Below, one piece after another: positions 8,066-25,532 of a DNA stretch of 44,475 nucleotides. The translations under genes were made by a program, and so were the position numbers. The notes under the pieces were generated by a model that was not told the DNA's origin, ran no database searches, and saw only the letters and a list, made by a program, of their open reading frames with translations. The stretch covers positions 1 to 44,475 of the forward strand of contig NZ_JQJI01000019.1 in the NCBI RefSeq assembly GCF_000745455.1, read 5' to 3'. Positions within the stretch are counted from its first letter, which is position 1. Every line of letters starts with the position of its first letter. The stretch is from Mesoaciditoga lauensis cd-1655R = DSM 25116 (lineage in GTDB: Bacteria > Thermotogota > Thermotogae > Mesoaciditogales > Mesoaciditogaceae).

Positions 8066-8791
8066 ATGAAAATAGCCATAGTAGGATTGGGACAAATAGG
8101 CGGCTCAATGGCGTTGAAGTTGCGCGAAGTTGGAGTGAAAGCGGATCTTTTCGATGTCGATCCAAAAATCTGTTCGTTGTTGAATGCGAATTGCAAGAAC
8201 TTTGACGGTAAGGGTTATGATTTGGTCGTTTTAGCTCTTCACATTCCAGTTCTTTTGAAAATCATGAATGAGTTGCCAAAAGATAACCTTTATCTTGATA
8301 CGGCATCCGTAAAATCTCAGGTGGTTGAAATGGCAAAAAAAGCCGGCTTGAGATTCATAGGCGGGCACCCTATTGCCGGAAATGAACGCGTAGGGCCAGA
8401 TTCATGGGATGCACATCTCTTTGAAGGAAAGCCATTTGCCCTTGTCGAGGTGAATGGCAATTTTGAGGATAAAAAAACAGTCGAAGAATTTGCCAAACTT
8501 TTAGGATCAAATCCAATATGGACAACCGCAAAAGAGCACGATGTATCACTTGCTCATACAAGCCATGCGCCTTATTTCGTTTCCGTTGCGGTAAAAAGGG
8601 TCGGAAAAAATCATGAAAAATTTGCGGGACCTGGTTATGAGTCCATGACAAGGCTTTCAAAACAAGATCCAAAGCTTGCAGATGTTTTTATCACGTACAA
8701 TGGTGTAAATACGGCAAAGGTGCTTCGAGAAGTTGCAAATGAAATTCTAAAAATGGCAGACGAGGTGGAAAAATGCAAAAATTCGGAATAA
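8066..8791 (+). CDS. tyrA: prephenate dehydrogenase
   Basis: TyrA oxidatively decarboxylates prephenate to 4-hydroxyphenylpyruvate, the direct precursor of tyrosine. The 241 residues begin with a Rossmann motif MKIAIVGLGQIGGSMALKL. They then show DTASVKSQVVEMA (about 73-85) and the substrate motif GGHPIAGNERVGPDSWDAHLF (about 94 onward, with its conserved His). HDVSLAHTSHAPYF (about 159-172) supplies further active-site His residues. There is no C-terminal ACT domain, so feedback control by tyrosine through that route is unlikely. The gene overlaps aroE by 19 bases. Confidence 0.93.
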   Translation: MKIAIVGLGQIGGSMALKLREVGVKADLFDVDPKICSLLNANCKNFDGKGYDLVVLALHIPVLLKIMNELPKDNLYLDTASVKSQVVEMAKKAGLRFIGGHPIAGNERVGPDSWDAHLFEGKPFALVEVNGNFEDKKTVEEFAKLLGSNPIWTTAKEHDVSLAHTSHAPYFVSVAVKRVGKNHEKFAGPGYESMTRLSKQDPKLADVFITYNGVNTAKVLREVANEILKMADEVEKCKNSE

Positions 8792-9573
8792 TTGGAGAAC
8801 ATCTTTCACATACTTTTTCTCCGCTTATTTACAACGAGCTTTTCAAAAAGCATGGGGTGAATGCCACATACAAAGTTTTGGAAATTCCCCGTGATGCTTT
8901 TGATTTCATAGTTAAGGACATAACCAGCGATCTTGCTGGATACAACGTAACCATTCCTTACAAATCCAAAATAATGGGATACTTAGAATCGGTCTCGCAG
9001 GATGCGAAAGAAATAGGAGCCGTCAACGTGGTGAACCACCTTAAAAAAGGGTTCAACACCGATTGGCAAGGTTTTAGAAAAAGCCTTGAAAATGTGAAAC
9101 TGAAAGGCAAATACGCCCTTGTTTTGGGTGCCGGCGGAGCAGCAAGGGCAATCTGTTATGCCCTGAAAAAAATGGATATAGACGTTTACATCACGAATCG
9201 CACAAGGGAAAGAGGAGAAAAGCTTGCGGCAGAATTCAATCTAAGATATGGAGTGCCTTCTTTATCCAAAGTGGCGCTGCTGGTTAACGCCACTCCAATT
9301 GGGATGTATCCAAACGTTGAAGAGATGCCTTCGATAGATTTGTCCAGGCTTTCAAAAAAATGTGTTGTTTACGATTTGGTCTACAATCCCCGTCCCACCA
9401 AGCTCATCCAGGAAGCTCAAAACAGGGGATTGAGAACGATAGATGGTCTCGAAATGTTGATACAGCAAGCCATTTTGAATTTGCGCGTATGGTCCCTTGA
9501 TGAATTGGCTGATGACTTGGAGAGAAACAAAAATTGGATTTACGAATCGCTTGAAAAAGTCAGACAAAGCTAA
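8773..9573 (+). CDS. aroE: shikimate dehydrogenase
   Basis: AroE reduces 3-dehydroshikimate to shikimate with NADPH. The 266 residues have the substrate site HTFSPLIYNELF (about 13-24) and GYNVTIPYKSKIM with the catalytic Lys (about 56-68). GAVNVV and NTDWQGF with the catalytic Asp follow. Next come the dinucleotide motif GAGGAARAI (about 119-127) and NATPIGMYPN. Length is normal. The ATG lies inside the end of tyrA behind GAGGTGGAAAA, which implies coupled translation. The unit ends here, and the 231-base gap to the sugar operon holds that operon's promoter. Confidence 0.95.
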   Translation: MQKFGIIGEHLSHTFSPLIYNELFKKHGVNATYKVLEIPRDAFDFIVKDITSDLAGYNVTIPYKSKIMGYLESVSQDAKEIGAVNVVNHLKKGFNTDWQGFRKSLENVKLKGKYALVLGAGGAARAICYALKKMDIDVYITNRTRERGEKLAAEFNLRYGVPSLSKVALLVNATPIGMYPNVEEMPSIDLSRLSKKCVVYDLVYNPRPTKLIQEAQNRGLRTIDGLEMLIQQAILNLRVWSLDELADDLERNKNWIYESLEKVRQS

Positions 9574-13842: not shown

Positions 13843-14740
13843 AGGAGTTGTGATAGCTGTAGTAACTCCCATGTCTAAGAATGGAGGAAGAGTTGATTTT
13901 GAAGCCATTCCACCTTACGTCGATTTTCTCGTTGAAAAAGGGGTAAATGGCCTTTTTGTTAATGGTACAACATCTGAGGGATTGTTGCTGAGCATAGATG
14001 AAAGAAGGCGCGTCCTTGAAGCCTTTCTTAGAGCAGCAAGTGGAAGGGTGAAAGTTATCGCGCATTGTGGGGCGACGAGACTGAAAGAAGTACTTGCGTT
14101 GGTTGAACATGCTCAGAAAAGCGGTGCAGATGGAGTGGGTATAGTTACACCTTTTTATTACAGAATTGGGGAAAAAGAGATGGAAAACTTTTACGCCAAA
14201 ATAGGGGAAAAATTTCATGATATTCCCATATACCTTTACAACATTCCGTCTTTGACTAACAACTGGATTACCCCACAAATTGCCACCAATTTGCATGAGA
14301 AATATTCAAACATCATGGGAGTTAAAGACAGCAGCGGAAATTTTTCCCACGTGCTATCCCTCATAAATGATACTCCAGATGATTTTTCGGTGTTAACTGG
14401 CTACGACAGGGCTTTTGCCTCTGTGCTTTTTGCTGGAGGAAAAGGTTGCGTTTCTGGGCCGGCAACGGTTTTTCCGGAATTTTTCGTTAAAGTTTGGAAG
14501 TCCTTTAAAGCCGGAAAATATTCTCAAGCAAAAGAATATCAAAGGAAACTCACAAAATTATCGTTGGCTCTTGGTGATGGAGCCAGCATTCCGCTTTTGA
14601 AAGCCGCTTTAGAATGGAGAGGTGTAAAAGTTGGTGGGGTTAGAACACCACTTTTGGATCTGGAGGAAGATGAAGCAAGGATCTATAAAGAAAGAATAAG
14701 CAAAGTTTTGAAGGAAGTAGGATTGAAATGGAAAATATGA
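13835..14740 (+). CDS. DapA/NanA-family aldolase (sugar-acid or N-acetylneuraminate lyase-like)
   Basis: This is a class I (Schiff-base) aldolase of the dihydrodipicolinate synthase superfamily, 301 residues from the preferred ATG. The lysine is in GVKDSSGN (about 161-168) and the catalytic Tyr in YLYNIPSLTNNW (about 133-144). The substrate loop reads FVNGTTSEGLLL (about 43-54), where the usual G-T-T-G-E has Ser in place of the second Gly. YNIPSL resembles NanA, while KDSSGN is common in 2-keto-3-deoxy sugar-acid aldolases. A dedicated lysine pathway role is unlikely inside a sugar operon. I chose ATG 13835 over GTG 13826 because AGAGGTGA sits just before it. Confidence 0.85.
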   Translation: MLEGVVIAVVTPMSKNGGRVDFEAIPPYVDFLVEKGVNGLFVNGTTSEGLLLSIDERRRVLEAFLRAASGRVKVIAHCGATRLKEVLALVEHAQKSGADGVGIVTPFYYRIGEKEMENFYAKIGEKFHDIPIYLYNIPSLTNNWITPQIATNLHEKYSNIMGVKDSSGNFSHVLSLINDTPDDFSVLTGYDRAFASVLFAGGKGCVSGPATVFPEFFVKVWKSFKAGKYSQAKEYQRKLTKLSLALGDGASIPLLKAALEWRGVKVGGVRTPLLDLEEDEARIYKERISKVLKEVGLKWKI

Positions 14741-18233: not shown

Positions 18234-19673
18234 TTAAAGTGTCTTTAAAATATCTTTGATTTTAACCTTTTCAATGTGAGATTTTCCGATCTCGTCGATT
18301 ATCGGGACAACGATGTACTTTCCTTCACGTTTTTTATCTTTATCTATCCATCGTTTAATTGAAGCGATCCCTACATCTGGGAAATTCAGCCTTTGAACGA
18401 CGCTTTCTATTTTTTGAGCCATTTGTGGGCTGAATATTTTGGATTCCACTTTCATTCCGATAGCTACAGCATGACCATGAGAAATTGTATTTTTACTTTC
18501 ACTTTCTATGGCGTGGGCAATGGTATGTCCAAAATTCAAGACATGCCTGTAATTATCGTCATAGGGATCTTTTTCAACTATTTCCAGTTTATCTTTTGCA
18601 GCAAGGAAGATGAGCTTTTTCACGCTTTCATATTTCCTTTTAATTATCCTATCGAAATTCATTTCTATGTGATCGAACAGTTCCTTGTCGTGAACTATTC
18701 CCAGTTTTAAAGCTTCAACTATTCCCTCTTTGAACCTTTCCCCTTTTAAACTCAAAGAGAAAATGGGATTTATAAAAACGCTTGGTGTTCCAAAAACACC
18801 CACAACATTTTTAATACCTTCAAAATTAAAGGCAAATTTTCCCCCTATGGCAGCATCAACCATTCCCAGCAGCGTCGTTGGAAGAAGGTTAAAATTCATT
18901 CCGCGCATAAATGTTTGAGCGGCGAAACCCACCGCGTCCGTTACCGTTCCGCCACCTATGGCGTTCACAACGGATTTTCTCGTTAAATCATGCTTTAAAA
19001 ACATCTTCCATATCTCGCTCACGCTGGAAATGCTTTTCAAAGTCTCTCCGTCTTCTACACCTATTCCTTCGATTTCCCATATTCTTTTTACATTTTCCGA
19101 AACCATCGTTAAGTCCGAAGGAGGAAAATTAAAATCATCACAAATAACCAATTTTTGGAACGAACTTGGAATTTTCACACACGATGGAACTATCATCTCT
19201 TTCGCGATCTTCGCGGCTACTTTCCATTCGTTTAAATCGGAAGTTTGAACTTTTTTGAATCTCTCATAAAACGGTTTCCTTTTTTCGAAAAGAGAAAAGA
19301 ATTTTTTTTCGCTGCTAGCCAACGGCCTACCGCTTTCTTTTACCCTCTTCCACAGAATTTCTACTGGACAATGAAGATAAAAAGTTTGCATGGAAGAGAG
19401 GATTTCCCTGTTTTCAGCGTTTTTTACTATTCCGCCGCCTGTGGAAATAACGACATCTTCCAATTTTGCCACTCTTTTGAGAATTTCCTTTTCTTTTTTT
19501 CTAAATTCACTTTCTCCGTGCTTTTCGAAAAAATCAGAAATAGAACCGTTTTCTTTTTCGAATTCTTCATCCATGTCAATCCATTTGAATCCTAATATGC
19601 CGGCCAATTTTTCTCCTATTTTACTTTTCCCAGAACCCATCATCCCGATAAGGGCCACTCTATTTCTTTTCAC
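18234..19673 (-). CDS. aroKB: fused shikimate kinase / 3-dehydroquinate synthase
   Basis: This is a bifunctional shikimate-pathway enzyme of 479 residues. Residues 1 to about 160 are shikimate kinase: P-loop GMMGSGKSKIG (10-20), WIDMDEEFE, FRKKEKEIL and STGGGIV. Residues from about 165 are 3-dehydroquinate synthase: NAIGGGTVTDAVGFAAQTFM, LLPTTLLGMVDAAIGGK, metal ligands around HVLNFGHTIAHAIE, and ISHGHAVAIGM. The same fusion is known in Thermotoga. It starts at ATG 19673 inside the end of aroC (14-base overlap). It is the last gene of the aroF-aroA-aroC-aroKB unit, and repeat copy C follows within 20 bases of its stop. Confidence 0.95.
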   Translation of the reverse strand: MKRNRVALIGMMGSGKSKIGEKLAGILGFKWIDMDEEFEKENGSISDFFEKHGESEFRKKEKEILKRVAKLEDVVISTGGGIVKNAENREILSSMQTFYLHCPVEILWKRVKESGRPLASSEKKFFSLFEKRKPFYERFKKVQTSDLNEWKVAAKIAKEMIVPSCVKIPSSFQKLVICDDFNFPPSDLTMVSENVKRIWEIEGIGVEDGETLKSISSVSEIWKMFLKHDLTRKSVVNAIGGGTVTDAVGFAAQTFMRGMNFNLLPTTLLGMVDAAIGGKFAFNFEGIKNVVGVFGTPSVFINPIFSLSLKGERFKEGIVEALKLGIVHDKELFDHIEMNFDRIIKRKYESVKKLIFLAAKDKLEIVEKDPYDDNYRHVLNFGHTIAHAIESESKNTISHGHAVAIGMKVESKIFSPQMAQKIESVVQRLNFPDVGIASIKRWIDKDKKREGKYIVVPIIDEIGKSHIEKVKIKDILKTL

Positions 19674-20775
19674 GGAAAATCCCCCATTTCCTTGAAACTC
19701 TGTAATTTTCCACCCTTTCCTTCATTTCTTGAAAAGTTGATCCACCAAATTCATTCATCATCTCTTTGAATATGACGGTTGAAAGCTTAGCTTGCGCTAT
19801 GATGGAAACAGCCCCAACAACGCACGTATCCGATCTCACGTAAGAGGTCTGAACGGCTTCACAACTTTTAAGATCAACGGTTTTCAAACCCTTACGTTGG
19901 GTTGGGACGGGCTTTACGAAAAGGGTTATCTCGACCTTTTCTCCGTTTGACATGCCACCTTCTATGCCCCCAGCATGATTTGTTTTTCTTTGACCATCGA
20001 TGCCTATCTCATCCATAGCTTGAATGCCGTTAAGCTTATACGTTTTGTCTATGTCTCCATATACGACTCCCTTGACAGAAGGGATGTCAAAAAGTGATTC
20101 GGCTATGAGGCTGGTAAGACGATTTTCATACGAATTAAAAGTTCCCAATCCCACTGGAAGTCCCTGCGCAAGTGCTTTCACTTTTCCTCCCAAAGTGTAG
20201 CCGTTTTCAGAAGCTTCGTCTATTTCACTCATCATCATCTTTTCCGCCTCATTATCTAGGCAAAGAAGTGGGTGCACTTGTGAAGATAATTCTTGAACAC
20301 TTTCAGCCTTAGATTCAATTTTCCCTATGGATTGTGTATATGCCCATATCTTCACTCCCAACTCTTCAAGAGCCTGCCTAAAAAATTCACCAATTGCCAC
20401 ATCCATTGCCGTCCTTCGGGAGCTGGAACGCTCTGTTGTAATGCGTGCATCTTCAAAGTCGTATTTGATCATCCCTGCAAAGTCAGCATGGCCCGGTCTT
20501 GGAGCCGTTGATTTACCATTCGGTGGAGTGGTAGATCTGTTTTTTATGAAAAAAGTTAACGGTGCACCAGTGGTTTCACCTTCCCACAAACCGGAAAGGA
20601 TTTGTATGTGATCACTTTCTAATTTCATCCTTTGACCACGCCCATAAACATGTTGTCGTGAAAACAAAGCCCTGTCTATTCGTTCGATATTCACCTTGAA
20701 ATGGGCTGGAAACCCTTCCACGATCCCAAAAAGTCCGTATCCGTGAGAATCACCGGATGTCAAAATCTTTATCAT
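19660..20775 (-). CDS. aroC: chorismate synthase
   Basis: AroC makes chorismate from EPSP using reduced FMN. The protein is 371 residues from the chosen start. Motifs are ILTSGDSHGYGLFGIVEGFP at the N-terminus, SRQHVYGRGQRMKLESD with the conserved Arg residues, and APRPGHADFAGMIKYDFEDA. SSRRTAMDVAIG and GGIEGGMSNGEKVE follow, with a C-terminal VRSDTCVVGA. An ATG 54 bases further upstream is open in frame, but ATG 20775 is preferred. It overlaps the aroA stop as ATGA, follows AAAAGGGGTGATGG, and gives the expected N-terminus. Confidence 0.96.
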   Translation of the reverse strand: MIKILTSGDSHGYGLFGIVEGFPAHFKVNIERIDRALFSRQHVYGRGQRMKLESDHIQILSGLWEGETTGAPLTFFIKNRSTTPPNGKSTAPRPGHADFAGMIKYDFEDARITTERSSSRRTAMDVAIGEFFRQALEELGVKIWAYTQSIGKIESKAESVQELSSQVHPLLCLDNEAEKMMMSEIDEASENGYTLGGKVKALAQGLPVGLGTFNSYENRLTSLIAESLFDIPSVKGVVYGDIDKTYKLNGIQAMDEIGIDGQRKTNHAGGIEGGMSNGEKVEITLFVKPVPTQRKGLKTVDLKSCEAVQTSYVRSDTCVVGAVSIIAQAKLSTVIFKEMMNEFGGSTFQEMKERVENYRVSRKWGIFREKK

Positions 20776-22028
20776 TCCATCACCCCTTTTAAATCTGAGA
20801 AGAAAGCGGGATAGCTTATCGATACACATTCAGCGTCTTCTATTTCTACGCCATCAGAACATACGCCGGCGATGCTCGCAAGCATTGCCATCCTATGATC
20901 GCCAAATGATTTTACTTTCGCACCATGAAGAGGAGTTTTTCCACGAACACGAAAGCCGTCTTCTAAACCTTCTATATTCGCACCCATCTTTTTTAAAATG
21001 TTAACCGTTGCCTCTATTCTGTCGCTTTCCTTTTTGCGTAGCTCTGAGGCGCCGTGCACCACCGTTTCACCTTCAGCAAAAGCTCCTAAAAGCGCTATTA
21101 AAGGCACCTCATCGACCATTGAAGGTATTTCTTCTGGAAGAACTTCCGTTCCTTTCAATTCCGAACTTTCCGCCACTATATTTCCAACTGGTTCAACACC
21201 TTCTTCCTTCTCTATCTCAATATTTCCTCCCATTCTTTTTAAAACTTTTAGCAATCCCGTGCGCGTTGGATTCAATCCTACCCTGTTTATTTTTAAACGC
21301 GCGTTTGAATGTATAATTGAAAGTACTAAAAAGAAAGCGGCCGAAGAAAAATCCCCAACAACTTCAAAAGTAAACGCGGGGATATCTCCCGGTATTATCT
21401 TCAATTCATTTCCATCTTTTTTTATCAAATCGAATTGGGACAAGAACTTTTCCGTGTGATCTCGGCTTTGAACATTTTCAACGTAAATGGATTCTCCCTC
21501 TGCACTAAGCGCTGCAAAGATAAAAGCGGATTTAACTTGCGCGCTTGAAAGTTCAGAAACGTAGCGTGTGGAGTGTAAGTTCCCACCTCTAATGGAAAGA
21601 GGCAAATTTGAAGCGTTGTTTCTGCCATCAAATTTTGCTCCCAATGCACTAAGCGGCTTCACAACCCTTTTCATCGGTCTTTTAGAAAGAGATTCATCAC
21701 CATAAAGCACTGAAAAAAAGTTCTCCCTTGCCAACAGCCCCATTCCAATTCTAGACGTTGTTCCGGAATTCCCGCAATCGATTGGGAAAGAAGGTTCTTG
21801 AAGCTTTACCGGGGGTATGATAACGATCCTTTCCCCTTCATCTTTTACAAATGCCCCAATGCTTTTTATGAAATTCATGGTTCTAAGCGTATCTTCCGAA
21901 CGAAGCAAGTTATGCACCGTGCACTTTCCTGTGGAAATGGAGGAAAACAAAAGCATCCTATGGCTTATGGATTTGTCTGGTGGAGGTACTATTTGTCCCC
22001 TTATCTTTGAAGATGAAGATATTTTCAT
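20772..22028 (-). CDS. aroA: 3-phosphoshikimate 1-carboxyvinyltransferase (EPSP synthase)
   Basis: AroA joins shikimate-3-phosphate and phosphoenolpyruvate. The 418 residues include PPDKSISHRMLLFSSIS (16-32), CGNSGTTSRIGMGLLA (about 85-100), SKRPMKRVVKPLSALGAKFD and SAQVKSAFIFAA. NPTRTGLLKVL, ELRKKESDRIEA and SFGDHRMAMLAS follow. The combination RPMKR, SAQVK and NPTRT corresponds to motifs used to define class II EPSP synthases. The start at 22028 overlaps the aroF stop by four bases. No catalytic residue appears lost. Confidence 0.96.
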   Translation of the reverse strand: MKISSSSKIRGQIVPPPDKSISHRMLLFSSISTGKCTVHNLLRSEDTLRTMNFIKSIGAFVKDEGERIVIIPPVKLQEPSFPIDCGNSGTTSRIGMGLLARENFFSVLYGDESLSKRPMKRVVKPLSALGAKFDGRNNASNLPLSIRGGNLHSTRYVSELSSAQVKSAFIFAALSAEGESIYVENVQSRDHTEKFLSQFDLIKKDGNELKIIPGDIPAFTFEVVGDFSSAAFFLVLSIIHSNARLKINRVGLNPTRTGLLKVLKRMGGNIEIEKEEGVEPVGNIVAESSELKGTEVLPEEIPSMVDEVPLIALLGAFAEGETVVHGASELRKKESDRIEATVNILKKMGANIEGLEDGFRVRGKTPLHGAKVKSFGDHRMAMLASIAGVCSDGVEIEDAECVSISYPAFFSDLKGVME

Positions 22029-23038
22029 GCTGTCACCTCTAAGGCTTTTAAGATCTTCATGCTGTTCTTATACGTTTCCTCAAATTCCGCAAAATTCAAA
22101 CTTTGTTGCCCGTCCGAAAGCGCTTTTTCAGGGTTGGGATGCACTTCTATCATGGCTCCATTTGCTCCCACGGCAACGACGGCTTTTGCCAAAGATGGTA
22201 TAAGATCCCTCCTACCCGTAGAATGACTTAAATCAACCACGATTGGCAAATGAGAAAGAATTTTGACAAGAGGGACAGCAGACATATCCAACGTGTTTCT
22301 CGTGTATTTCTCGAAGGTCCTTATTCCCCTTTCACACAGGATAACCTTTTCATTGCCGTGATGAAACAGATATTCAGCCGCCAGCAACCATTCTTCTATC
22401 GTTGACATGAATCCCCTTTTCAAGAAGATGGGTTTACTGGAATTTCCGAGCTTCTCAAGAAGCCTGAAATTTTGCATATTTCTGGCGCCTATTTGAATTA
22501 TATCCACGTATTCTTCAAAGATGTCAAAGTCATCCACCGACATCATCTCGCTTATAACTTTCATACCGTACTTATCTCCGACTTTTCTAAGGATCTTTAA
22601 ACCTTCTAAGCCCAAACCTTGAAAGGAGTACGGTGATGTTCTTGGCTTGAAGGCACCTCCGCGCAATATTTTCACTCCAAGCGATGACAAAAAGCTTGCC
22701 TCTTCATCCATCTGTTCCATAGATTCCACCGCACAAGGCCCTGCGAAAAATTCGAAGTGCTTTCCTCCAATTTTTACCCCGTCAATGTCTATGATCGTGT
22801 CATCAGGATGGAATTCCCTTGAAACCAACTTGAAAGGCTTAAGAACGGCTATAATCTCTTCCACACAATCTAAAGCTTCAAAATTTTCCCTCCTTTCGTA
22901 AACATTTTCACCTATTATTCCAACGATCGTCTTTTCAGCACCTCTGGATAGGTTGACGTCAAAACCAAAATTCTTAGCAAGATTCACCACTTTTTTAACA
23001 TCTTCTTCGGAAACATGTGGTTTCAAAACGATTATCAT
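22025..23038 (-). CDS. aroF: DAHP synthase with N-terminal ferredoxin-like regulatory domain
   Basis: This enzyme condenses erythrose-4-phosphate and phosphoenolpyruvate, the entry step of aromatic synthesis. The protein is 337 residues from the chosen ATG. Residues 1 to about 70 (MIIVLKPHVSEEDVKKVV) match the small regulatory domain that mediates tyrosine inhibition in the T. maritima enzyme. The barrel follows with FFAGPCAVESMEQMDEE, LRGGAFKPRTSPYSFQGLG, FLKRGFMSTIEEWLLAAEY, VILCERGIRTFE, PIVVDLSHSTGRRDLIP and GAMIEVHPNPEKALSDG. Three ATG codons compete; 23038 is chosen because it lies nine bases from AAAGGAG, whereas 23047 abuts it. A leader attenuator precedes it. Confidence 0.95.
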   Translation of the reverse strand: MIIVLKPHVSEEDVKKVVNLAKNFGFDVNLSRGAEKTIVGIIGENVYERRENFEALDCVEEIIAVLKPFKLVSREFHPDDTIIDIDGVKIGGKHFEFFAGPCAVESMEQMDEEASFLSSLGVKILRGGAFKPRTSPYSFQGLGLEGLKILRKVGDKYGMKVISEMMSVDDFDIFEEYVDIIQIGARNMQNFRLLEKLGNSSKPIFLKRGFMSTIEEWLLAAEYLFHHGNEKVILCERGIRTFEKYTRNTLDMSAVPLVKILSHLPIVVDLSHSTGRRDLIPSLAKAVVAVGANGAMIEVHPNPEKALSDGQQSLNFAEFEETYKNSMKILKALEVTA

Positions 23039-23067
23039 GATCATCATCTCCTTTTATTCCAAATAAA

Positions 23068-23100
23068 AAATCGGGGATTCTTTTTCAGAATCCCCGATTT
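23068..23100 (-). terminator. attenuator terminator upstream of aroF
   Basis: Perfect 13-bp arms AAATCGGGGATTC and complement, a seven-base loop and a T-run form a rho-independent terminator. It lies in the aroF 5' leader, 30 bases before the start codon, so it acts on leader transcripts and not on an upstream gene. Confidence 0.9.
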
Positions 23101-23192
23101 GTGAGCAGAAGTTTTTGGCAAAAGAAAACTACTTCACCTCACAAACGGGGGTGGTGATAATAGTAATAGTAAGCGTAATTGTCTTTTGCCAA
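23068..23192 (-). promoter_or_regulatory. tyrosine attenuator: alternative terminator/antiterminator structures
   Basis: Read on the minus strand. Segment 1 TTGGCAAAAGA (23182-23192) is fully complementary to segment 2 TCTTTTGCCAA (23115-23125). Segment A CCCCCGTTTGTGAG (23138-23151), at the end of the leader peptide gene, pairs with segment B CTCACAAATCGGGG (23092-23105) with one bulge. Segment B overlaps the upstream arm of a perfect 13-bp terminator: arms 23088-23100 and 23068-23080, loop TGAAAAA, then TTTTTTATTT. Ribosome stalling on the leader's Tyr codons would cover segment 1 and allow A:B pairing, which prevents termination. Full translation would cover A and let the terminator form. 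This is the logic of the E. coli trp attenuator. Confidence 0.88.
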
Positions 23193-23207
23193 TAAAATTT
23201 CTTTCAT
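23139..23207 (-). CDS. tyrosine leader peptide of the aroF operon
   Basis: This is a 22-codon ORF beginning MKEILLAKDN, followed by YAYYYYYHHPRL and TGA. Six of codons 11-17 are Tyr (mix of TAC and TAT), with one Ala. The ribosome site AAAGGAGAG is placed four bases before the ATG. It lies between a consensus promoter and the attenuator terminator of the operon for the first committed enzyme of tyrosine synthesis. Its role would be to sense charged tRNA-Tyr by ribosome stalling. The peptide itself probably has no function. It is too short for ordinary gene callers. Confidence 0.88.
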   Translation of the reverse strand: MKEILLAKDNYAYYYYYHHPRL

Positions 23208-23246
23208 GTTTCTCTCCTTTTTCTTGAAAGAAAAAATGTTTATTCA

Positions 23247-23275
23247 ATTCTACTATTTTGAAATCAATTTGTCAA
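23247..23275 (-). promoter_or_regulatory. promoter of the aroF-aroA-aroC-aroKB operon
   Basis: The minus strand reads TTGACA (23270-23275), a 17-base spacer and TAGAAT (23247-23252). This is a near-perfect housekeeping promoter about 40 bases upstream of the leader peptide ATG. A strong constitutive promoter followed by an attenuator is the expected arrangement. Confidence 0.85.
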
Positions 23276-23366: not shown

Positions 23367-25532
23367 TTAAAATTTCACAGACGCTATTTGTCTCTTTAGC
23401 CAAGAGTTTAATTTCTTGGCTTCAGTTACCGTATGCGATTCCGATGCTATTCTCAAGATGGGCTCTGTTCCAGAAAAACGTGTGAGAATCCAGCTGCCAT
23501 CTTCTAACACGAACTTCTTTCCGTCGATTTCTCTTACTTCTACCACCTTTTTGTTGGAAACTTCTTTCAAATCTTGAGAGAGAAATTTGGTGGCTTTCAC
23601 TTTAAGCTCAGGTGTCAGCCTTAAATCTTCCTCTTGAAAGAAAAATCTTTCTCCCATTTTGGCAAACAGTTCTTTCATTATGATTGAAAGAGGTTTTTTC
23701 ATCGTTGAGAGCATTTCAAGGATCATCATGCTGGTGTAAACGCTATCCTTTTCCATAATATGCCCTCTGAAAGTTACACCTCCGCTGCTTTCCCCGCCTA
23801 TTAAAGCTTTATGATCCACCATTGCCTTCGCAATATGTTTGAAACCGACCGGCACTTCGTAAACCTTCTCACCCATAATACGCGCTAAGATATCCAAATT
23901 ATGGGTTGTAGAGACGTTTCTGACAACGCCACCTTTCTTGCCTTTAATCTCATGAAGATAGTGATAAAGCAGCAGAATGATCTCATTTGGATGAATGAAT
24001 TTTCCTTTTTCATCTACGATGGCTATTCTGTCAGCATCTCCATCCACGGCAATTCCAATGTCGTAGTTTCCCTCTTTTACCGTATTTATAAGAGTCGTCA
24101 GGGATTTTTCGGAAGGGGCAGGAGATATGCCTCCAAAAAGTGGATCTCTCCTTGCATGAAGCATGGTGAGGTCGCATCTGGCGCTAACAAGCGCAAATTG
24201 AATCGTACTTGCACCCGATCCATACATTGAATCGAAGCACACACGAATTTGCGATTTTTTGATGGCCTTTATGTTTATCTTCTTTTCAAGGTAATCAAGA
24301 TAAGCGCCTCTAAAATCTTCTATTTCAAAGTATCCAGCTTGCATGGCTTTTTCAAATGGAATCCATGGAATAGTGTTCACGTCGAATGAATTCGCTTCTT
24401 TTTCTATTGTAGACGTTACATCTTCCGGTGAAGGAAGACCTTCTTTTGTTTCAAACTTAACACCGTTGTACTCTGGAGGGTTGTGTGAAGCCGTCAGCGC
24501 AATACCTCCACCAGCTTTTTTTCTCAAAACCGTAAAAGTTACGATTGGCGTTGGAAGCGAAGAGTTACTCATGTAAACCTTTATGTTGTTCGCCGCAAAA
24601 ACTTCGCCGGCTATTCTCGCAAACGTTTCAGAGAGAAAGCGGTTATCGTAACCTATTACAATTCCATTGGCATCGAGACCATCCCTGATAAGATAATTTG
24701 CGATTGCTTGTGAGACCCTTCGTAGATTTCTGCTGGTGAAGCCTCTCCCTATCTTTGCTCTCCATCCTCCCGTTCCGAAATGGATAAAACGCTCTTGTTT
24801 TATCTCCAATTCCTCGATTTCCCTTTCAGCCATGACGTTCTCGCCACGTCGAAGATCTTCTTTCGTGTTTATGCCGAGATATTCGCTTTCATCAAAGCTC
24901 ATGTAAGTTTGCACTTTTAATTTTTTGTCTATGGCAATGTTTACAAGCTCCGGTATGTAGTATTCTCCTTTATCTGCTGGCTTTACCTTTTTAAAGAGTG
25001 GCAAAATTTTCTTCACCTTGAAAGCGTACATGCCAATGTTGTACTCCCATGGTGGAGAAGATGGGGGGCGCATTTCTTCCTTAACCGCCACAAGATTAGA
25101 GCCATCTTTAATGACCAAAGCATAAGGATACTTTCGTGAGGAAAGACCTGTTAAGAGCGTCACATCCGCATTTTTTAAAGTGTGGAAGTTAAACACTCCG
25201 GATATGGAGGAAGGCCGTATAAGAGGAGTATCGGCATACATTACAAGAACATCTTCATCTTCTTTAATTCCTTCAATACCATATTTTAAAGCGTCAGCTG
25301 TACCGAGCGCTTTAGGTTGGACAACGTATTCAAAATCGCTCCCAAGGCGTTTTTTTATCTGAGATGAGTTTTTCTTTCCTACAACCAATCGAATCTTCGC
25401 ATCTTTAAAAACGCTCCTGATGTTATCTATAACGTGTAAAACAAGTGGCTTTCCGTTCATTTCAACCAGGGGCTTTGGCGTTTTTCCACCCATACGCGTT
25501 CCCGAGCCGCCGGCGAGTATCACAGCATACAT
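23367..25532 (-). CDS. fusion: GlmU-like nucleotidyltransferase + phosphohexomutase
   Basis: A 721-residue two-domain enzyme. Residues 1 to about 235 form a sugar-phosphate nucleotidyltransferase: LAGGSGTRMGGKTPKPLVE (7-25), GTADALKYGIE, YADTPLI and EYLGINTKEDL. There is no left-handed helix acetyltransferase domain. From about 245 it is an alpha-D-phosphohexomutase: FGTGGWRA, the phosphoserine loop TASHNPPEYNGVKF, metal loop DGDADRIAIVDE, sugar loop GGESSGG, and phosphate loop FSGTEPILRI. Together they could convert a hexose-6-phosphate to the 1-phosphate and then to a nucleotide sugar. It is last in the operon, 22 bases after a permease. The sugar (glucose, mannose or glucosamine) is undetermined. 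Confidence 0.88.
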   Translation of the reverse strand: MYAVILAGGSGTRMGGKTPKPLVEMNGKPLVLHVIDNIRSVFKDAKIRLVVGKKNSSQIKKRLGSDFEYVVQPKALGTADALKYGIEGIKEDEDVLVMYADTPLIRPSSISGVFNFHTLKNADVTLLTGLSSRKYPYALVIKDGSNLVAVKEEMRPPSSPPWEYNIGMYAFKVKKILPLFKKVKPADKGEYYIPELVNIAIDKKLKVQTYMSFDESEYLGINTKEDLRRGENVMAEREIEELEIKQERFIHFGTGGWRAKIGRGFTSRNLRRVSQAIANYLIRDGLDANGIVIGYDNRFLSETFARIAGEVFAANNIKVYMSNSSLPTPIVTFTVLRKKAGGGIALTASHNPPEYNGVKFETKEGLPSPEDVTSTIEKEANSFDVNTIPWIPFEKAMQAGYFEIEDFRGAYLDYLEKKINIKAIKKSQIRVCFDSMYGSGASTIQFALVSARCDLTMLHARRDPLFGGISPAPSEKSLTTLINTVKEGNYDIGIAVDGDADRIAIVDEKGKFIHPNEIILLLYHYLHEIKGKKGGVVRNVSTTHNLDILARIMGEKVYEVPVGFKHIAKAMVDHKALIGGESSGGVTFRGHIMEKDSVYTSMMILEMLSTMKKPLSIIMKELFAKMGERFFFQEEDLRLTPELKVKATKFLSQDLKEVSNKKVVEVREIDGKKFVLEDGSWILTRFSGTEPILRIASESHTVTEAKKLNSWLKRQIASVKF

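Follow-up and report, generated by a model that had tools for sequence, protein, structure and literature searches.

What decides whether RNA polymerase enters the aromatic biosynthesis operon aroF-aroA-aroC-aroKB of Mesoaciditoga lauensis? The stretch of DNA analysed here (hereafter "the window") comprises 44,475 nucleotides of contig NZ_JQJI01000019.1, and the operon lies on its minus strand, directly downstream of a compact leader element. It consists of aroF (22025-23047), for a type I-beta DAHP synthase (NF006421, TIGR01361, PF00793; nearest solved structures 1vr6 and 1rzm), aroA (20772-22028), for EPSP synthase (TIGR01356), aroC (19660-20829), for chorismate synthase (TIGR00033), and aroKB (18234-19673), for a fused shikimate kinase and 3-dehydroquinate synthase (NF010556 as best NCBIfam match, TIGR01357; both below curated cut-off), with overlapping gene ends. 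The N-terminal regulatory domain expected of AroF in the initial annotation is indeed present, as an FXD domain (PF18152). That annotation, made from the letters alone, had also proposed a tyrosine-sensing attenuator ahead of aroF. From sequence and comparative evidence, the element very probably controls aroF-aroA-aroC-aroKB as a ribosome-mediated transcription attenuator, reading charged tRNA-Tyr. Directly upstream of it, also on the minus strand (23367-25532), lies a gene fusing a GlmU-like nucleotidyltransferase half to a GlmM-like phosphohexomutase half.

The amino acid repertoire of the organism gives this reading its metabolic frame. In a genome with an estimated completeness of 99.96%, TyrA is present, and neither TrpE nor prephenate dehydratase (PheA) was found, so that tyrosine is the only aromatic amino acid predicted to be made; the organism is predicted to be auxotrophic for phenylalanine and tryptophan and to retain the shikimate pathway chiefly for tyrosine. 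The tyrA gene lies in the window (8066-8791), next to an aroE-like gene (8773-9573), and no Tyr leader was seen before it there. A separate non-coding feature of this genome is a set of about 10 copies of GTTGAAAA(C) and its reverse complement upstream of groES-groEL (G000:C16 about 14050-14500; L065 1450-1900).

Parts of the leader and folding models

The element, all of it on the minus strand, begins with the sigma-70-type promoter already recognised, TTGACA-17-TAGAAT (23247-23275), which matches the consensus at 11/12 positions with a 17-bp spacer; similar elements occupy the same place in two related leaders (L002 and L003). Behind the Shine-Dalgarno sequence AAAGGAG (23220-23214) follows the leader peptide ORF MKEILLAKDNYAYYYYYHHPRL, with an ATG start and 22 codons (23139-23207). 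Its sensor, TAC GCT TAC TAT TAC TAT TAT (codons 11-17; 23157-23177), places Tyr at codons 11 and 13-17, and the six Tyr in seven codons first reported are thus upheld. At the Tyr frequency of window proteins such a density has p=2e-8 per position, and the maximum in any seven-residue stretch of those proteins is four. Genome-wide, four Tyr codons in succession are found at five sites, the leader being one; the other four sites fall within two long reading frames or within short ones that have no leader context, and no convincing second Tyr-run leader was found in this genome.

Four segments and a terminator complete the layout. Segment A, CCCCGTTTGTGAG (23138-23150; codons 19-22 and the stop codon), forms the 5' strand of the antiterminator, and segment B, CTCACAAATCGGGG (23092-23105), forms its 3' strand and overlaps the 5' arm of the terminator. 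The antiterminator agrees with the earlier description: 13 bp with one bulged U, 23150-23138 against 23105-23092, sharing a strand with the terminator. The intrinsic terminator (23068-23100) has a 5-base loop and a U tract TTTATTT; its stem is perfect and shares that strand, as claimed, and measures 14 bp rather than 13. Both A:B and the terminator need AAATCGGGG and are mutually exclusive. Segment 1, TTGGCAAAAGA (codons 6-9; 23182-23192), and segment 2, TCTTTTGCCAA (23115-23125), form a perfect 11-bp pairing, the 1:2 stem, of which segment 2 is the 3' strand. This stem has A enclosed within it and cannot be nested with A:B. For the stretches containing these three structures, free energies predicted at 37 C are -24.7 (1:2), -24.9 (A:B) and -22.4 kcal/mol (terminator). 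The sequence features by which a leader-peptide attenuator is recognised are present, namely a translatable ORF with a Shine-Dalgarno sequence, a run of cognate codons, a terminator and an exclusive antiterminator. By every test available here the element classes as a ribosome-mediated attenuator, best read as Tyr-sensing in this organism.

In operation, a shortage of Tyr-tRNA would stall the leader ribosome on Tyr codons 11-16, with its front edge leaving segment A free and its rear covering or disrupting segment 1, so that the A-trapping 1:2 stem would not form. Free A would then pair with B once B had been transcribed; with B, its 5' arm, thus engaged, the terminator would be disfavoured and RNA polymerase would enter the operon. 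With plentiful Tyr-tRNA the ribosome would reach the stop codon inside A and cover this segment; B would pair with the terminator 3' arm, and transcription would stop before aroF. What we infer from this arrangement is that the ribosome stalls, where it does so, how this is timed against the progress of RNA polymerase, and that the switch responds to tyrosine.

Equilibrium folding of the complete RNA usually favours the terminator, in the window even when A is free (0.68 against 0.88, outer stem); equilibrium switching is strong in most leaders of family f7 (about 0.1 against 0.9) and partial in Thermotoga. Switching would consequently have to be kinetic and co-transcriptional, a mechanism accepted for classical attenuators. 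Since folding of the whole leader at equilibrium is not decisive, a nascent-RNA calculation was used, for 60 C and for transcripts still lacking the terminator 3' arm, in which the ribosome footprint ended 13 bases past the first base of the A-site codon. In this model B is sequestered in the window leader with a probability of up to 0.55 at Tyr codons 11-15 and of 0.15 at the stop codon, and in 30/30 leaders modelled the maximum over the Tyr codons lies above the value at the stop codon. Against shuffled sequences, the effect of ribosome position has p=0.07 in the window and p below 0.05 for about half of the other leaders; the model is weak for L052 and for some f6 leaders (L027, L029). In several leaders of the cascade type described below, an unrestricted automatic search for terminators chose the A:2 hairpin or a longer structure, and a restricted search served the fold models. 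The alternative folds suggested at the outset thus respond to the modelled ribosome in the right direction on nascent RNA, and are not generally reproduced at equilibrium on complete RNA.

The same calculations bear on a simpler reading, in which the hairpin is an ordinary terminator, constitutive or serving the upstream gene, accompanied by the peptide and the second pairing only by coincidence. In its favour, equilibrium folding gives the terminator the greater stability, and in the window sequence alone the A:B energy exceeds that of shuffled A zones only modestly (p=0.033); the case for an attenuator leans on conservation. We regard the ordinary terminator as very improbable: the promoter and the leader ORF intervene between the upstream gene and the hairpin, and the Tyr run, A:B and the general layout are kept across sequence-divergent families with compensatory changes, as set out in the following section.

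Distribution and architectures in Thermotogota

Among 103 Thermotogota genomes, AroF was detected in 60; a marginal match (G083, E=8e-4) and four loci ending at a contig end were set aside, leaving 55 assessable. With leader clusters called by hand-set rules, an aromatic-rich leader and a terminator precede aroF, or the chorismate mutase gene that heads the operon, in 46/55 of these AroF-bearing genomes, belonging to 9/11 families (f1, f3, f5, f6, f7, f8, f9, f10 and f11; Thermotoga included). The operon is headed by a chorismate mutase gene in L053 and L055, and there the leader precedes that gene. Every leader found contains Tyr codons. Exclusive stems and Tyr runs are thus kept in close and distant relatives alike, the comparison on which the initial annotation had staked its proposal, and the result supports the Tyr-attenuator reading. 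The host had been described as Thermotoga-like; it is Mesoaciditoga-like rather than a Thermotoga (its AroF is 99% identical in a Mesoaciditoga sp. MAG, L031), and the device itself extends across the phylum. The leader of G090 is MRRGRIICLKSVEHNYYYFWFNRGTCP; we take this genome to be that of Thermotoga maritima MSB8, in which case the leader precedes TM0343. The exact-match core pattern of the Thermotoga-type element is present as a single copy in 11 genomes, and no second such element was found elsewhere in the phylum.

Two further observations concern individual members of this set. The only member of genus g18 with TyrA found (G038) has two aroF copies (L083 and L046), with a Tyr leader before one of them. 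In two f9 loci (L048, L050), AroF appears to be without the N-terminal FXD domain and the leader is kept, so that transcriptional control may replace feedback inhibition there.

The leaders fall into two architectures. In the direct A:B:T design (families f1, f7, f8 and f9, with the second copy of aroF in G038, L083, among them), segment A follows the aromatic run and pairs with the terminator 5' arm, as in CCCGGTTTGTGGT/ACCATAAATCGGG of f1, AGACACCCATTTTGG/CCAAAATGGGTGTCT of f7, ATGCCCTCTTCC/GGAAGAGGGCAT of f8 and GTGCACCTACGG/CCGTGGGTGCAC of f9 (A and B, respectively). A five-segment cascade occurs in f10 and f11, with variants in f3, f5 and f6; its pairings are A:2, 2:3, 3:4 and 4:5, the last being the terminator. 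In the cascade, a ribosome at the stop codon would cover A, allowing 2:3 and 4:5 to form and transcription to terminate, and a ribosome held on Tyr codons would leave A free, with A:2 and 3:4 forming and read-through as the outcome. On this logic both designs are predicted to respond in the same way.

The alignments agree with these pairings. In f1, 94.6% of A:B cells are paired, against 32-52% in slid versions, both sides have changed in five cells (e.g., GC to AU), and 0/500 shuffles equalled the cells paired or the covariation score; in the cascade, 97% of the cells of A:2 and 2:3 are paired and four pairs of each have changed on both sides, all these counts deriving from one ten-row alignment per case and being inflated by kinship among the rows. 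By sequence comparison, then, the A:B pairing is conserved with compensatory changes, and the alignment of aroF leaders bears out the conserved Tyr runs and compensatory pairing that had been looked for. The 1:2 stem fared differently. Its perfect 11-bp pairing stands, and it is found only in L001 and L002, the near-identical Mesoaciditoga leaders, and is therefore without independent support; as a general feature it was rejected, being unconserved beyond Mesoaciditoga, and stems of like placement in f8 and f9 enclose A.

These leaders are highly structured, and the Thermotoga segments are GC-rich and strongly conserved, features that would also suit a riboswitch, a protein-binding leader or a T-box-like leader whose ORF was there by coincidence. 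Such a reading is very improbable, the least probable of those weighed here. No Rfam family was matched at gathering score in the window or in 14 relatives, and a known Rfam leader or riboswitch was accordingly rejected, the only amino acid leader match being a sub-threshold one to RF00506. T-box control was likewise rejected: RF00230 had 0 matches in this genome and in the 102 others (0/103 Thermotogota) under filters stricter than usual, with Bacillus subtilis and other controls positive. Furthermore, the sequences of the elements differ among families and the aromatic codons and the logic remain constant, a pattern not explained by a shared ligand pocket.

Leader codons and pathway genes

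If leader peptides read the end products of the pathway, their codons should be compared with the biosynthetic genes of each genome. Counting related genomes as independent, TyrA is present in 43 and absent from 3 genomes with a leader, and present in 1 and absent from 8 without one (Fisher p=1e-6); the exception among the nine leaderless genomes is G004, with TyrA and no leader. On the same footing, TrpE is present in 26 and absent from 1 of the genomes with a Trp codon in the run, and present in 4 and absent from 15 of those without (p=1e-7), and Phe codons in the run follow PheA (p=2e-4); reduced to one row per genus pattern, the two associations give p=7e-4 and p=0.006, respectively. The AroF tree yields 6 independent TrpE contrasts, in 4-5 of which the leader Trp codon changes in the same direction and in none in the opposite one (sign test p=0.06-0.125); the independent contrasts for Trp and Phe are too few to reach significance.

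Individual cases are instructive. The only f1 genome with PheA, G014, which also has TrpE, reads FEYNFWYY, and its nearest relative, G015, which has neither gene, reads YNYGYY. Conversely, G071, without TrpE and PheA, reads YYYYY in an AroF clade whose other members read Tyr, Trp and Phe. The window leader, with its Tyr-only run and a Tyr-only predicted repertoire, follows the same rule. Mismatches also occur: no Trp codon in the run despite TrpE in G010, G011, G038 and G040, a Trp codon without TrpE in G056, no Phe in the run despite PheA in family f6, and Phe without PheA in G013, G016 and G005. As regards gene position, the aroF leader in L006 and L007 (G009 and G008) contains a Trp codon and has trpE a short way upstream; in G010 and G011, with leaders lacking a Trp codon, trpE lies on another contig.

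It seems somewhat probable to us that the codons evolve with the repertoire, Tyr, Trp and Phe following the branches made, with the leader lost together with tyrosine synthesis and the switch RNA rebuilt at least twice. If this is true, the leader is a readable record of the end products that gate the common pathway. The tyrosine specificity first proposed holds for the run of this organism; relatives that make Phe and Trp usually carry a mixed Tyr/Phe/Trp sensor.

Those mixed runs lend themselves to another interpretation, namely an attenuator of the same class that mainly senses the general state of translation and growth, or the aromatic amino acids collectively, and not tyrosine. Besides the Phe and Trp codons of relatives, it can draw on the Phe-Tyr-Phe leader of Corynebacterium glutamicum aroF, which is reported to answer Phe limitation and not Tyr limitation (PMC11802643). 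Nevertheless, the run of the window leader contains only Tyr in a genome predicted to make only Tyr, every leader has Tyr codons, and the leader is missing mainly where TyrA is missing. We therefore consider collective or general sensing unlikely, and prefer the reading of charged tRNA-Tyr.

Comparison with known systems

The kind of mechanism is known. New, to the extent of our search, are its Tyr specificity, its spread across the phylum, its two architectures and its tie to pathway content. The initial suggestion that the device was possibly undescribed holds to that extent: neither a Tyr-specific ribosome-mediated attenuator nor any such attenuator in Thermotogota was found in the open-access literature, most subscription papers lying beyond the search. 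A 2013 survey of RNA regulons lists attenuator specificities for His, Leu, Thr, Trp, Ile/Val and Phe, and suggests a gamma-proteobacterial origin (PMC3766115). Predicted attenuators before tyrA operons are tabulated in PMC1173090, the available part of which does not name Thermotoga; for Thermus, the table has an attenuator ahead of aroF-tyrA. A Tyr-reading attenuator across Thermotogota, in which no T-boxes were detected, broadens the specificity and the distribution of the mechanism, and suggests how the shikimate pathway may be controlled in a model thermophile. The association of leader codons with pathway genes also provides a natural experiment on regulators tracking metabolic change, in which end products may be predictable from a 30-residue peptide.

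Among the nearest cases is the aroR leader of C. glutamicum aroF, likewise an aromatic peptide before a DAHP synthase gene and acting through ribosome stalling (Neshat et al., 2014); it differs in its three aromatic codons (Phe-Tyr-Phe), its reported response to Phe and not Tyr, and its occurrence in Actinobacteria (PMC11802643). Another is the uORFC-13-1 motif of Acholeplasma aroF, also a candidate upstream ORF with a terminator, but its proposed codons are Phe, no Tyr run is described, and it is limited to Acholeplasma and environmental sequences (PMC8632094). Tyrosine T-boxes of Firmicutes similarly place tyrosine genes under the control of tRNA-Tyr charging at a terminator, although they bind the tRNA directly, with no translation, and none was found in Thermotogota. 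The threonine operon leader of Rfam (RF00506) matches the window leader over its full length at 22.3 bits (cut-off 55; E=0.042), a match that may reflect a shared layout; scoring far under the cut-off, the window leader is not a member of that family. Finally, the trp, his and pheA leaders of E. coli likewise combine a short peptide in which the regulated amino acid recurs in a run, a stop codon near the switching segment and an exclusive antiterminator/terminator pair that controls a biosynthetic operon. In contrast to them, the Mesoaciditoga leader reads Tyr and precedes the common shikimate pathway, and its segment A, at the end of the ORF, pairs directly with the terminator 5' arm; Thermotogaceae and f11 add two segments, extending the switch to a five-segment cascade.
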